DNA of 46,502 bases from Coriobacteriia bacterium (GTDB lineage: Bacteria > Actinomycetota > Coriobacteriia > Anaerosomatales > Kmv31). Of this stretch, positions 9,820 through 16,681 are shown one piece after another. Every line of letters begins with the position of its first letter. Position 1 is the stretch's first letter. The notes under the pieces were generated by a model. It saw only the letters and a program-made list of their open reading frames with translations, searched no databases and was not told where the DNA came from. The translations under genes were made by a program, and so were the position numbers. The stretch is from positions 1-46,502 of the forward strand of contig JACUUM010000009.1 in NCBI GenBank assembly GCA_014859305.1, written 5' to 3'.

Positions 9820-10845
9820 CTACGCGCCCGCGTCGGGGGGCCGATCGGGACGCGTCCCCGAAGGCGCCGCCCCCGGCCCTGCGATCCCCGGCCTGCCCAG
9901 GCCGTCCAGAGCGCGCAGCAGCCGGTTGCGCTCGATGAGCGCCGAGAACGACACGCGCTCCGAGAGCAGGTTGAGCCCCAGCAGCACCGCGGCCCAGACG
10001 GCGAGCCACGGCATCGGCAGCCCGAGCGCGGCCGCGTAGCCGGCCAGCGCTCCCGCTGCGTTGGCCCCCGCGTCGCCGAGCATGCCGCGCTCGCCGGCGT
10101 CGTAGCGCCACACGGCGAGAGCGGGACCCGCGAGGAGGACGGCCGCGACGGCTCCCCGGCCCAGGCCGCCGGCCGGCAGGCTCCGTCCTCCCGAGACGAG
10201 CGCGCCGGCCAGACCGGCCGCCGGCAGCCCGACGAGCAGGTAGCCCTTGAGCGCGCGCGCCGGACGCAGGTCGAGCAGGTTCACCAGGTTCGCGGACAGC
10301 GCGATCACCGCGGCCGCCGTCAGCCAGGCGACCAGTCTGCCCGCGGAGGGCGGAGCGGCGTCCCCGGCCGCCCGGGACCCGACTGCCCTGACGGCGTAGA
10401 TCGCGGACAGCGACGCGAGACCGACGAGTTTGAGCGTCCCGGTCGTCACCCTCCCCCGGCCGAGCTCGCGGAGGTGACCCCGCAGGCCCTTGGACCGGGA
10501 GTCGCCGAACGCGTCGTCGAGCAGTCCGAACGCGAAAGCGCCCGCGACCAGCCCGAGAGGCACGATGGCGCTCGAGAACCCCCCGAAGGCCGAGAGGTGG
10601 CTGCCTGCCCGACGAAGTCCGGCCCAGGTCAGCAGGGATCCGACCGCCTCCGTCTCGGCCAGCGCCAACGCCGCGAGCAGCCACGCGGCGCCCAGGCCGA
10701 GCGGGACCTCCCGTCCCCTGTGGTTCCGCACCCGCGCCCGCCGCTCGAGACCGGGCAGCGCCCACCGGACCACGACGGCGGGCACGACCCAGGCCGCGAA
10801 GGCGGCAAGGCCGAGGAGACCGGCCACGAGCGGCGCGCCGCTCAC
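9820..10845 (-). CDS. MraY/WecA-like polyprenyl-phosphate phosphoglycosyl transferase
   Basis: 341 aa, polytopic (about 9-10 hydrophobic segments). It contains the hallmark motifs of the polyprenyl-phosphate N-acetylhexosamine-1-phosphate transferase superfamily: GLLDDAFGD (Asp110/Asp111), [15 protein letters not shown] (Asp192) and GMLGDAGAN (Asp258). These enzymes transfer a sugar-1-phosphate from a UDP-sugar to undecaprenyl phosphate. The family's usual early pattern is weak here, and mraY itself would be expected in the dcw cluster, so this is more likely a WecA/TagO-type or uncharacterised branch that starts a secondary envelope polymer. The GTG start overlaps the stop of the upstream membrane gene (GTGA), so the two are coupled. 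Confidence 0.83.
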
Positions 10846-12161
10846 TCGCCCACCCCCTCGACTCCCTCTCCGCGGCCGCCGCTCCCCTCGCCCGCGGCGG
10901 TCCTCGCCGGCGCCTCGGCCCCGGGGCATGCCGCCGGCATCGCCGCGGCGTAGGCCAGCACGCCGCCGGCGTAGAGCAGCACCAGCGCGGGGATGGCGAC
11001 GCCCGAGTCCTCCGTCACCATCCCGAGCGCCGAGCCGACGAGCGCCCCGACCAGCGAGGCGCGCAGGACCGGCCTCGGCGCGAGCAGCCCCGCCAGACGC
11101 GGCGAGGGACGCCGCAGCGCGTAGGCGAACCAGCCCATCGCCGCCAGCACGACCAGGGAGCCGGGGGTCGCCGTCAGCACCCGCAGGTTGATCGCGACCT
11201 TGGCGGCGATCATCGGCAGCAGCGCCGAGACCCCGCCGTCGCCGAACGCGCGCAGCGACCGGGCCAGGTGCGTGCCGCCATCGGCGCGGGCCAGGTCGAG
11301 CGCCGCGAGCGCGACGACCGTGAGCGCGGCGACCGCCGAGGCGGCGGCCGCCTCCCTCCAGCCGATCGCACGCCCCCTCGCGAGCAGGGCCGCCACGGCG
11401 AACCCCGCCGTCGCCCACAGCGCCACGGTGACGTTCGCACCCAGGCCGGGAGCCGCCGACGTGAGCACGACCGACGCGCCGACGAGCGGCAGCGCGAGGC
11501 GGACGAGCACGTCCCTGCGCGCGCCGGGGGGCGCGCCGTCGCAGCACAGCCCCGCGCCGAGCAGCCCCGAACCGAAGAGCACCGCCGCCCCCTCGTTGCC
11601 GAGCCCGTAGAAACGCACCCCGTCAAGCGGCGAGTAGCTGAGCACGCTCAACGGGGCGACCGGGCCGCCGAGCCACTGGTCCGCGAGCATCGCGGCAGCG
11701 GTGCCGAGGAGCAGCGCCGTCAGCGCCCTCCTCGGCCCGCGGAGTACGGCCAGCGCGGCCGAGGCGGCCAAGAGCACGGCCCAGGCGCCCGCCAGCGCGA
11801 GGAGGAAGAGTCCGACCGTACCCGGTCGCGGCACGAGCAGGAACATCGTCACCGAGGCGGCGGGGAACGCGAGGACCGCGAGCAACGCGAGCCGCCAGGC
11901 GGCCGGGCGGCGGATGCGGCCACCAAGGCCGGCCGCCAGGCCGGAGATCACGACGACGGCCGCCACCAGCGCGAAGGCGGCCAGCACCTCCACCCGCAGC
12001 CGGTAGACGACGGCGAGGACCGGCTCGAGGTCGGCCAGACGCGCCTGGAGCAGCGGCGGGACCTCCTCGCCGGTGAAGTCCAGGGGCGGCGGCGATGTGG
12101 CGAACGGCAGGATCACGGGTCCCTCCGGCAGAGGTGCCCGGCGCCCGAAACGGCCCGGCAT
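10842..12161 (-). CDS. Polytopic membrane protein with [14 protein letters not shown] motif, unknown function
   Basis: 439 aa. After about 55 residues it has roughly 10 hydrophobic helices and a Gly/Glu-rich tail. Conserved-looking extramembrane motifs are [14 protein letters not shown] (residues 177-190), [16 protein letters not shown] and [18 protein letters not shown] recall similar polytopic proteins with an RxYGIGNE-type motif near steA-like genes in firmicutes and actinobacteria, but no function is assigned to them as far as I know. It is coupled to the phosphotransferase gene and divergent from murJ, which suggests a role in envelope polymer assembly or flipping. The ATG at 12161 has no Shine-Dalgarno, and TATACT lies 8 nt upstream, so the mRNA may be leaderless. 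Confidence 0.7.
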
Positions 12162-12169
12162 CCGCGCAG

Positions 12170-12175
12170 AGTATA
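12170..12175 (-). promoter_or_regulatory. -10 element (TATACT) immediately before the YGLGNE gene
   Basis: The minus strand reads GGCTATACTCTGCGCGG and then ATG, with 8 nt between hexamer and start codon. This places +1 at or beside the ATG, as for xerD. No recognisable -35 at 16-18 nt. Confidence 0.5.
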
Positions 12176-12257
12176 GCCCAGCCGCGCCGGCCGCTCGGGG
12201 GCGCGGCGACCCCGGCGGCAGGGTGGCGGGCCTGTCGGCGAGGCGGGCGCTCCTCGG

Positions 12258-15469: not shown

Positions 15470-15499
15470 GGCGGCCTTCCCATCCCGCGACCGGCATCC

Positions 15500-15551
15500 A
15501 GTCTACACCGCCGGCCCGCCGCCCCGCTGCGCGCGGCTCCCCGCGAGCCGC
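15500..15551 (-). promoter_or_regulatory. steA-mctB intergenic: hairpin and candidate -10
   Basis: GCGGCTC/GAGCCGC (15533-15551) forms a hairpin 8 nt after the steA stop without a U-tract. Beyond it TAGACT (15500-15505) could serve as a -10 for the mctB-like gene, 30 nt before its GTG. Both calls are weak. Confidence 0.35.
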
Positions 15552-15559
15552 CCGTCCCC

Positions 15560-16681
15560 CTACAGCCCCGCCCATGCCCGCACGCGCAGGAGCACGAGGG
15601 CGAGGAACGTCCTCGCGTACGGCGAGATCATCACGAGGGCGCTGACCGCCGCGAGCGCCGCGGCGACCAGCAGCAGCAGGTGCGACGGGCCGACGGTGGT
15701 GCGGTACAGCTTGTTCACTCCCTTGGCGTCCACGAGCTTCGGCCCCACCTTCAACCTGGTGAGGAAGCTCGAGGCCATGCCCTTTCGCCCTTTGTCGAGG
15801 TATTCGAGCAGGTTGTCGTGCATGCCCACGGCCACGATCAGGTCGGCGCCCGACTCGTAGGCCAGCAGCAGCGCGAGGTCCTCGCTGGTGGCGCCGAGGG
15901 GCCAGACGACGTGCTCGATCCCCAGCCGTTCGAGCCGCTCCTGTGCGGGGCAGCGGCCGTCGGGGTAGGCGTGCACGACCAGCTCCGCGCCGCAGCGCAG
16001 CGCCTCGTCGGAGACCGAGTCCATGTCGCCGAGGATGATCCTGGGCGTGAGGCCCGCCTCGAGCAGCGCGTCCGCGCCGCCGTCCACGCCTACGAGCACG
16101 GGCCTCATCTCGCGGACGTAGGGCTTCAGCGCGCGCATGTCCTCGCGGTAGTCGTACCCTCGCACGACGACCATCACGTGCCGGTCCTTCAGCGCGGTGC
16201 GGATGGCAGGAATGCCGGTACCGTCTGTGAGCAGGGCCTTCTCCTTGGCGAGGAACTCGAGCGTGTTCCGCGCGAACTCGTCGAGCCGCTCTCCCATGCC
16301 CGCCTTGGCGCGCTCCATCGCTTCCTCGATGACCGCGACGGTGAGCCGCGTGCCCCGGGCCACCTCGGCACCGTCGAGGTAGACGCACTCGCCCTGGACC
16401 TCGACCGTGTCCCCCTCCCGCACCGCCTCGAAGACCTCCCGCCCGACCTCATCGATGAGCACTACCCCTCCGCGGGCGAGGATGAGCGGCCCGAGGTTGG
16501 GGTAGAGCCCCGAGATCGACTGGGCGGCGTTGACGACGACCTCCACCCCGGTCTCGAGCAGCGACTCGGCGCTGACGCGGTCCATGTCCTCGTGGTCCAC
16601 GATCGCGATGTCGGCGCGGCCGAGGCGCTTCACGAGGTCCTTCGTCCTGCGGTCGAGCCGCGCGGTGCCGCTATGGCGCAT
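15560..16681 (-). CDS. steA: SteA-like membrane-anchored protein (thiamine pyrophosphokinase-like fold)
   Basis: 373 aa. The N-terminal part contains GTARLDRRTKDLVKRL and a cofactor-like segment (SISGLYPNLGPLILARGGVV). The central domain resembles thiamine pyrophosphokinase catalytic domains (VGVDGGADALLEAGLTPRII, then LGDMDSVSDEAL and VWPLGATSEDLALLLA). One hydrophobic helix near the C-terminus (HLLLLVAAALAAVSALVMI) anchors it. SteA in Corynebacterium is linked to cell division and envelope integrity with its partner SteB. Its ATG overlaps the recN stop by one base (TGATG), and the MctB-like gene follows, as in other actinobacteria and firmicutes. Confidence 0.85.
   Translation of the reverse strand: MRHSGTARLDRRTKDLVKRLGRADIAIVDHEDMDRVSAESLLETGVEVVVNAAQSISGLYPNLGPLILARGGVVLIDEVGREVFEAVREGDTVEVQGECVYLDGAEVARGTRLTVAVIEEAMERAKAGMGERLDEFARNTLEFLAKEKALLTDGTGIPAIRTALKDRHVMVVVRGYDYREDMRALKPYVREMRPVLVGVDGGADALLEAGLTPRIILGDMDSVSDEALRCGAELVVHAYPDGRCPAQERLERLGIEHVVWPLGATSEDLALLLAYESGADLIVAVGMHDNLLEYLDKGRKGMASSFLTRLKVGPKLVDAKGVNKLYRTTVGPSHLLLLVAAALAAVSALVMISPYARTFLALVLLRVRAWAGL

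Follow-up and report, generated by a model that had tools for sequence, protein, structure and literature searches.

Our analysis showed that a cluster of six envelope-type genes at positions 9820-16681 of a Coriobacteriia contig (JACUUM010000009.1, assembly GCA_014859305.1; the whole stretch of 46,502 nucleotides is called the window here) contains a conserved core unit, steA-steB-GT2-PT, that occurs in Actinomycetota and in a Bacillota group. Besides steA and steB, the cluster holds a family 2 glycosyltransferase gene (GT2), the flippase gene murJ and the genes for two proteins that we call PT, a predicted sugar-1-phosphate transferase, and YG, a polytopic protein with the motif RFYGLGNE. 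PT (one branch of the PNPT superfamily) and YG are two newly defined families with no Pfam or NCBIfam name. Our preferred reading, which we hold tentatively and judge to fall a little short of probable, is that a dedicated lipid-linked saccharide is assembled by PT and GT2 and acted on outside by YG, and that SteA and SteB couple this pathway to cell separation. The six genes and two of their neighbours are as follows.

9820-10845, minus strand: PT, a divergent putative polyprenyl-phosphate sugar-1-phosphate transferase (PNPT fold), placed by predicted structure and conserved residues
10842-12161, minus strand: YG, a polytopic protein with RFYGLGNE from a family without a name, lacking an N-terminal phosphatase-like domain (alignment with 15 relatives)
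12337-13905, plus strand: murJ, a MOP-type lipid flippase (TIGR01695)
13895-14608, plus strand: GT2 glycosyltransferase, core member of the steA-steB-GT2-PT unit (PF00535)
14615-15469, minus strand: steB (mctB family), the partner of steA (PF11382)
15560-16681, minus strand: steA, a cell-separation regulator with a TPK-like nucleotide pocket (NF040608)
8156-9769, minus strand: pyrG (CTP synthase), a conserved neighbour, named from sequence and synteny
16681-18345, minus strand: recN, a conserved neighbour, named from sequence and synteny

A first-pass annotation of this DNA had described six envelope-type genes lying together, and all of them are present, each as one unbroken reading frame starting at a codon that we picked. 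The order is tlyA-nadK-recN-steA-steB><GT2-murJ|YG-PT-pyrG: murJ and GT2 occupy the plus strand between steB and YG, while tlyA, nadK, recN, steA, steB, YG, PT, pyrG, an M20-type peptidase gene and a DUF3866 gene are on the minus strand. Overlaps were seen between YG and PT (4 bases), murJ and GT2 (11 bases) and recN and steA (1 base). We use the names recN, nadK, tlyA, pyrG and, elsewhere in the genome, murF as presumptive; pyrG and recN are probably outside the pathway. Judged from their sequences, four of the six belong to named families by curated cut-offs, namely SteA (NF040608, 494.9 bits against a cut-off of 150), SteB/MctB (PF11382, 119.3 against 25.6), MurJ (TIGR01695, 316.8 against 235.55) and GT2 (PF00535, 53.7 against 23.3), which bears out the earlier pairing of steA with an MctB-like gene, while PT and YG fit none. 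A long open frame in one related locus (L117) that might have been a GT2-MurJ fusion is an overlapping frame, and the set contains no frame that spans two cluster proteins.

The complete order recN-steA-steB-GT2-murJ-YG-PT-pyrG, in the orientation of the window, recurs in 30 of 79 related loci (mostly from Coriobacteriia, plus Armatimonadota, one Bacillota and several other Actinomycetota) and in 15 of 20 loci of a second set, and the order is therefore more than chance; part of the remaining loci stop at a contig edge, and YG stands alone in 23 of the 79. At 14 diverse Actinomycetota loci, steA-steB is followed by GT2 in eight and by PT in 13, with at least one of the two in all 14; at four of these loci PT has a MurJ-like gene next to it. 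At 21 Bacillota-group loci, steA lies beside PT in every case, with GT2 between them in 20 and a recognised steB in 19; YG and murJ were found at none of the 21. These two locus sets were preselected on long contigs (by PT in the Bacillota group, by SteA plus PT in the Actinomycetota) and so give no measure of linkage, and the GT2 counts across loci come from a clean GT2 profile. Among the matches listed, 138 of 140 Bacillota-group genomes carry steA and PT on one contig, always less than 3.5 kilobases (kb) apart; the two genes are likewise on one contig in 101 of 111 genomes of Actinomycetota, and in 96 the distance is below 10 kb.

The genes also occur together when whole genomes are counted. 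SteA passed its cut-off in 126 of 296 Actinomycetota genomes, and PT was found in 116 and YG in 104 of them; SteA and PT coincide in 111, with SteA lacking PT in 15 and PT lacking SteA in five, and YG and SteA coincide in 95, with nine genomes having YG without SteA and 31 the reverse. Forty families have SteA, of which 38 have PT and 36 have YG. Among 249 Bacillota-group genomes, SteA was found in 161, PT in 160 and YG in 160; 159 have PT together with SteA and 87 have neither (PT alone in one, SteA alone in two), and YG and SteA are both present in 157 and both absent from 85 (YG alone in three, SteA alone in four). SteA matches under the curated cut-off were dropped (33 of 159 in Actinomycetota, 34 of 195 in the Bacillota group), as were 23 of 183 Bacillota-group YG matches weaker than an expect value (E) of 1e-10; in Actinomycetota, the YG threshold was E 0.001, and all 104 matches that reached it were used. 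Within the order to which the window belongs, 31 of 41 genomes have YG, counting the source genome. On a recA tree of 76 genomes (four of 80 stretches without a clean frame were left out), SteA presence changes eight times (FastTree) or nine times (IQ-TREE), compared with 24 changes on average after shuffling.

Co-occurrence past close relatives, whose absence would have refuted the first-pass proposal, was thus found in Actinomycetota and in the Bacillota group. No partner of PT is more constant than SteA, and for this reason the two options raised for the cluster, a new glycan and a division-linked control of wall synthesis, may be one system. One SteA-bearing family stands apart: all eight of its SteA genomes are without PT and YG, and seven of them keep the order recN-steA-steB-pyrG, steB not being recognised in the eighth. 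Going by gene order, we take this family (f42) to be Mycobacteriales.

PT could not be placed by sequence comparison. No Pfam or NCBIfam model matched it up to E 1, PF00953 included (three of 31 relatives match that model weakly, and a Bacillota relative in L205 passes its cut-off, with 34 bits against 27); a profile search of solved structures returned chance rows only, and hhalign against the MraY and TagO-like proteins of the same genome gave probabilities of about 5%. The predicted fold was therefore needed. The PT model (predicted local distance difference test score, pLDDT, 89.1) aligns with MraY (9zno) at Z 20.4 over 267 residues, with a root-mean-square deviation (rmsd) of 4.2, and with human DPAGT1 at Z 18.4, and the first row beyond the PNPT superfamily falls to Z 6.7, in line with the WecA/MraY-like phosphotransferase first proposed here. 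Along with the MraY/DPAGT1 fold, PT has the other marks of the PNPT superfamily, namely an Asp pair and N-N-D and GD motifs, and residues D110, D111, D192, D258, N186 and N189 occur in every one of 106 sequences, a set that includes 35 from Bacillota. At the place of the His loop of MraY and WecA, PT has SERxSFSxxIE, and an invariant D314. Because the fold is MraY-like and the catalytic residues are invariant, PT is probably an active transferase.

Two PF00953 matches are present in the source genome (2.13 Mb in 76 contigs, 98.14% complete), both outside the window. One, on contig 52, has the MraY motif HHHFE and adjoins a MurF-like frame; the other, on contig 13, is TagO/WecA-like and has HIHH. 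The labels of these two genes are presumptive and are based on motifs. PT is thus not the sole MraY of the genome, so the second condition that would have refuted the first-pass proposal did not come true either; by its modelled structure PT adds a divergent third protein of the MraY/WecA fold to the two found elsewhere.

Relatives of YG are about 770 residues long and begin with a signal peptide, followed by a domain of some 340 residues and then by a membrane half with about 11 hydrophobic helices. In the model of one relative (L086, pLDDT 91.9), residues 32-369 have an alkaline phosphatase fold (Z 22.1 over 244 residues, rmsd 3.1). No histidine in this domain is conserved in 75% of 69 non-Bacillota or 80% of 15 Bacillota sequences, as counted in sequences of more than 600 residues and without a residue-by-residue overlay on a true enzyme; as histidines of the metal-binding type are not conserved, the alignments suggest that the domain is probably not an enzyme. 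If this first domain is outside the cell, D508, R530, YGxGNE, G588, D636, H646, K669, N673 and DSG (733-735) would all lie at the outer face. Loop charges weakly back this predicted orientation: basic residues outnumber acidic ones in four of the six presumed inner loops, are fewer in one and even in one, and the outer loop 639-681 has six basic against three acidic residues.

The window YG, which lacks the first domain, keeps 21 of 22 residues checked in the membrane half, R668 being alanine. A search for a leftover of the lost domain in the window gave a best tblastn match of E 0.009 at 39298-39417, far from the gene, which we rejected, and a profile search of the source genome for YG returned the membrane part only. 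The domain seems to shrink repeatedly within this order. YG matches of about 550-575 residues, not about 770, were also seen in L121, L127, L129, L131 and L140, and a Bacillota locus (L233, 7285-11751) has a 1488-residue open frame with two tandem YG matches. By sequence, YG has no match in Pfam and a single one in NCBIfam, at E 0.86; against solved structures, the window protein returned nothing and the family only weak rows (best E 0.018). The suggestion that the cluster makes a glycopolymer found no support in YG, as no polymerase or ligase family matched it: in a comparison with O-antigen ligases and polymerases (WaaL, Wzy), Pfam gave no consistent family match in searches that did not take the membrane half alone. 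The structure searches with L086 returned no fold for the membrane half, which carries no weight because a single domain took up the lists.

At some other loci, YG lies beside glycan genes. A GT4 gene, confirmed with Pfam, adjoins it at five of 11 Bacillota YG loci (L226, L227, L229, L231 and L236) and at Armatimonadota loci L145 and L149, and in Coriobacteriales L125, L128 and L130 GT2 comes after YG, while the stretch examined there contains neither steAB nor PT. In two Bacillota-group genomes (G509 and G534), YG starts less than 200 bases from steA, on the opposite strand. A short gene that by eye resembles S-adenosylmethionine decarboxylase is near YG at six of the 11 Bacillota loci (L226, L227, L231, L232, L233 and L236).

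Cluster GT2 sequences (107 aligned) conserve DD 43-44, DxD 96-98, SGQR 158-161, H204, H216 and Q220, and the window GT2 lies below the curated NCBIfam cut-offs of polyprenyl-phosphate GT2 equivalogs, the best score being for AglJ (71.1 against 325). The window murJ is the only full MurJ in its genome, where the second match reaches 20.3 bits and remains below the cut-off, so this protein is probably the housekeeping flippase. The first-pass annotation had seen here the parts list of a lipid-linked pathway; the list itself is real and reaches far past close relatives, but a dedicated flippase is not supported, as the genome has no second MurJ that passes the cut-off.

SteA (TapA) and SteB have been studied as regulators of mycobacterial cell separation and drug susceptibility. 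The SteA pocket residues G218, D219, D221, S222, S266 and D268 are each present in 73 to 82 of 82 SteA sequences. A 2026 paper reports that the Corynebacterium glutamicum protein is stabilised by GDP or UDP and not by ADP or triphosphates and that its pocket overlays nucleotide sites including the CMP site of a sialyltransferase; the authors of that paper state that identifying the SteA ligand needs more work (PMC12977500). Two consecutive SteA matches, the second partial, were seen at L029 15782-17711.

Our preferred reading builds on the predicted folds, the intact catalytic motifs of PT and GT2, the linkage and the co-occurrence, and from these we infer the reactions, the flippase step, the action of YG and the signal to SteA. 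PT would move a sugar phosphate from a nucleotide sugar onto polyprenyl phosphate at the inner membrane face, GT2 would add a second sugar or charge a polyprenyl-phosphate sugar with release of UDP or GDP, and a flippase of the MurJ type, which in this genome is probably the housekeeping MurJ, would carry the product outward. YG would then transfer or modify the product at the outer face, where its conserved polar residues are predicted to be, and the phosphatase-like domain, absent from the source genome, may serve as a non-catalytic docking or sensing part, a role that has been proposed for the phosphatase-like domain of YejM. With its nucleotide pocket, SteA would sense the pathway from the cytoplasmic side and pass a signal to wall hydrolases by way of SteB or another partner. 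GT2 should release UDP or GDP, the nucleotides that stabilise C. glutamicum SteA. A broader and rather unlikely version is that an ancient PT-GT2-YG pathway of Actinomycetota and Bacillota supplies the SteA ligand, so that separation proceeds only while the pathway runs, and that Mycobacteriales kept the sensor and lost the pathway. Either way, the question of the SteA ligand becomes testable, as the cluster partners are candidate enzymes for it. We found no description of the extended cluster in PubMed Central (PMC), a search that does not cover preprints outside PMC and most subscription papers.

Several observations weigh against our preferred reading. Twenty Actinomycetota genomes have SteA and PT with YG undetected, six of the 11 Bacillota YG loci have no adjacent glycan gene, and the domain missing from the window YG is carried by most of its relatives. 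The Foldseek E for PT is weak (best 1.7e-3). Co-occurrence counts ignore descent, so shared descent is not removed from them, and the recA tree offers just two independent pairs where branches have support, which is not enough for a test. The unrelated genes recN, pyrG, M20 and DUF3866 are kept in order too, and linkage alone may therefore reflect old gene order. Nucleotide binding by Mycobacterium tuberculosis SteA is described as inconclusive (PMC12977500), and TapA is described as working via the kinase MtrB and, in contrast to MctB, as required for mycobacterial cell separation (2025 preprint, PMC12338722). The MtrB route fits a cytoplasmic SteA ligand, and does not fit SteB as the sole output.

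The same conserved frame allows PT, GT2 and YG to be makers of an ordinary envelope glycan, perhaps a wall polymer or a protein glycan, next to which steAB lies through the ancient recN-pyrG order with no functional coupling. This agrees with the order also being kept by tlyA, nadK, recN, pyrG and M20, plus DUF3866 in the two Bacillota loci checked, and with counts uncorrected for descent. It accounts poorly for YG, which tracks SteA presence though it is away from steA at the 21 Bacillota-group PT loci, and for the rarity of PT without SteA (5 of 116 Actinomycetota and 1 of 160 Bacillota-group genomes with PT), and we consider it possible but doubtful. A proposal that we find improbable makes SteA and SteB working parts of the pathway, SteA being a nucleotide-sugar enzyme or scaffold and the hydrolase control of Mycobacteriales a later use after pathway loss. 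The conserved TPK-like pocket and the retention of SteA in the family that lost PT and YG would suit it, as would the overlay on the sialyltransferase CMP site and the stabilisation by UDP or GDP, whereas the SteA N-terminal domain lacks a catalytic histidine and, in the part of the paper available, no enzyme activity is reported (PMC12977500). As for PT being a second MraY in a cluster that serves peptidoglycan synthesis along with murJ, the location of the only full MurJ of the genome in the cluster would favour such a role, yet MraY and TagO-like genes exist elsewhere in the genome, PT has no HHH loop while the contig 52 gene has both that loop and a dcw-type location, and none of the 21 PT loci of the Bacillota group has murJ. 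We hold this reading to be very improbable.

Further features of the surroundings were seen in other genomes. The M20-type peptidase and DUF3866 genes 3' of pyrG (window 5922-8152) are also downstream of PT in Bacillota-group L201 and L210, so the conservation across phyla extends to a larger neighbourhood. In two large genomes of another family (f37; L247 and L248), recN is followed by a PT-like gene, and steA and steB were not recognised. At four Bacillota loci, a gene that we presume to be spo0A was seen by sequence. In Clostridia, steAB has been placed downstream of spo0A, with the genes that follow going unmentioned in that passage (PMC12977500).

Compared with the SteA-SteB module of Corynebacterium and Mycobacterium (PMC6705760, PMC12977500), the window has a SteA over the cut-off, a SteB of the same family, adjacent genes and the same tlyA-nadK-recN-steA-steB-pyrG frame, and differs in that PT, GT2 and YG join steAB, in contrast to the eight f42 genomes without PT and YG. 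PT shares with MraY, WecA/TagO and DPAGT1 the fold (Z 20.4 to MraY, 18.4 to DPAGT1), the paired Asp and the N-N-D and GD motifs, while SERxSFSxxIE with D314 stands in for the His loop of MraY/WecA, and the window PT is below PF00953 detection. The YG family resembles YejM/PbgA and LtaS-type proteins in its alkaline-phosphatase-like outer domain (YejM and LtaP top the Foldseek list for L086), and is set apart by having that domain first, followed by about 11 membrane helices, with no conserved histidine in it; the window YG differs further, having no such domain. Finally, AglJ, GpgS and polyprenyl-phosphate GT2 enzymes are the nearest scored families and solved structures to the cluster GT2, which shares the DxD motif with them and carries an SGQR and H-TGRD-GF-HR-Q signature of its own.

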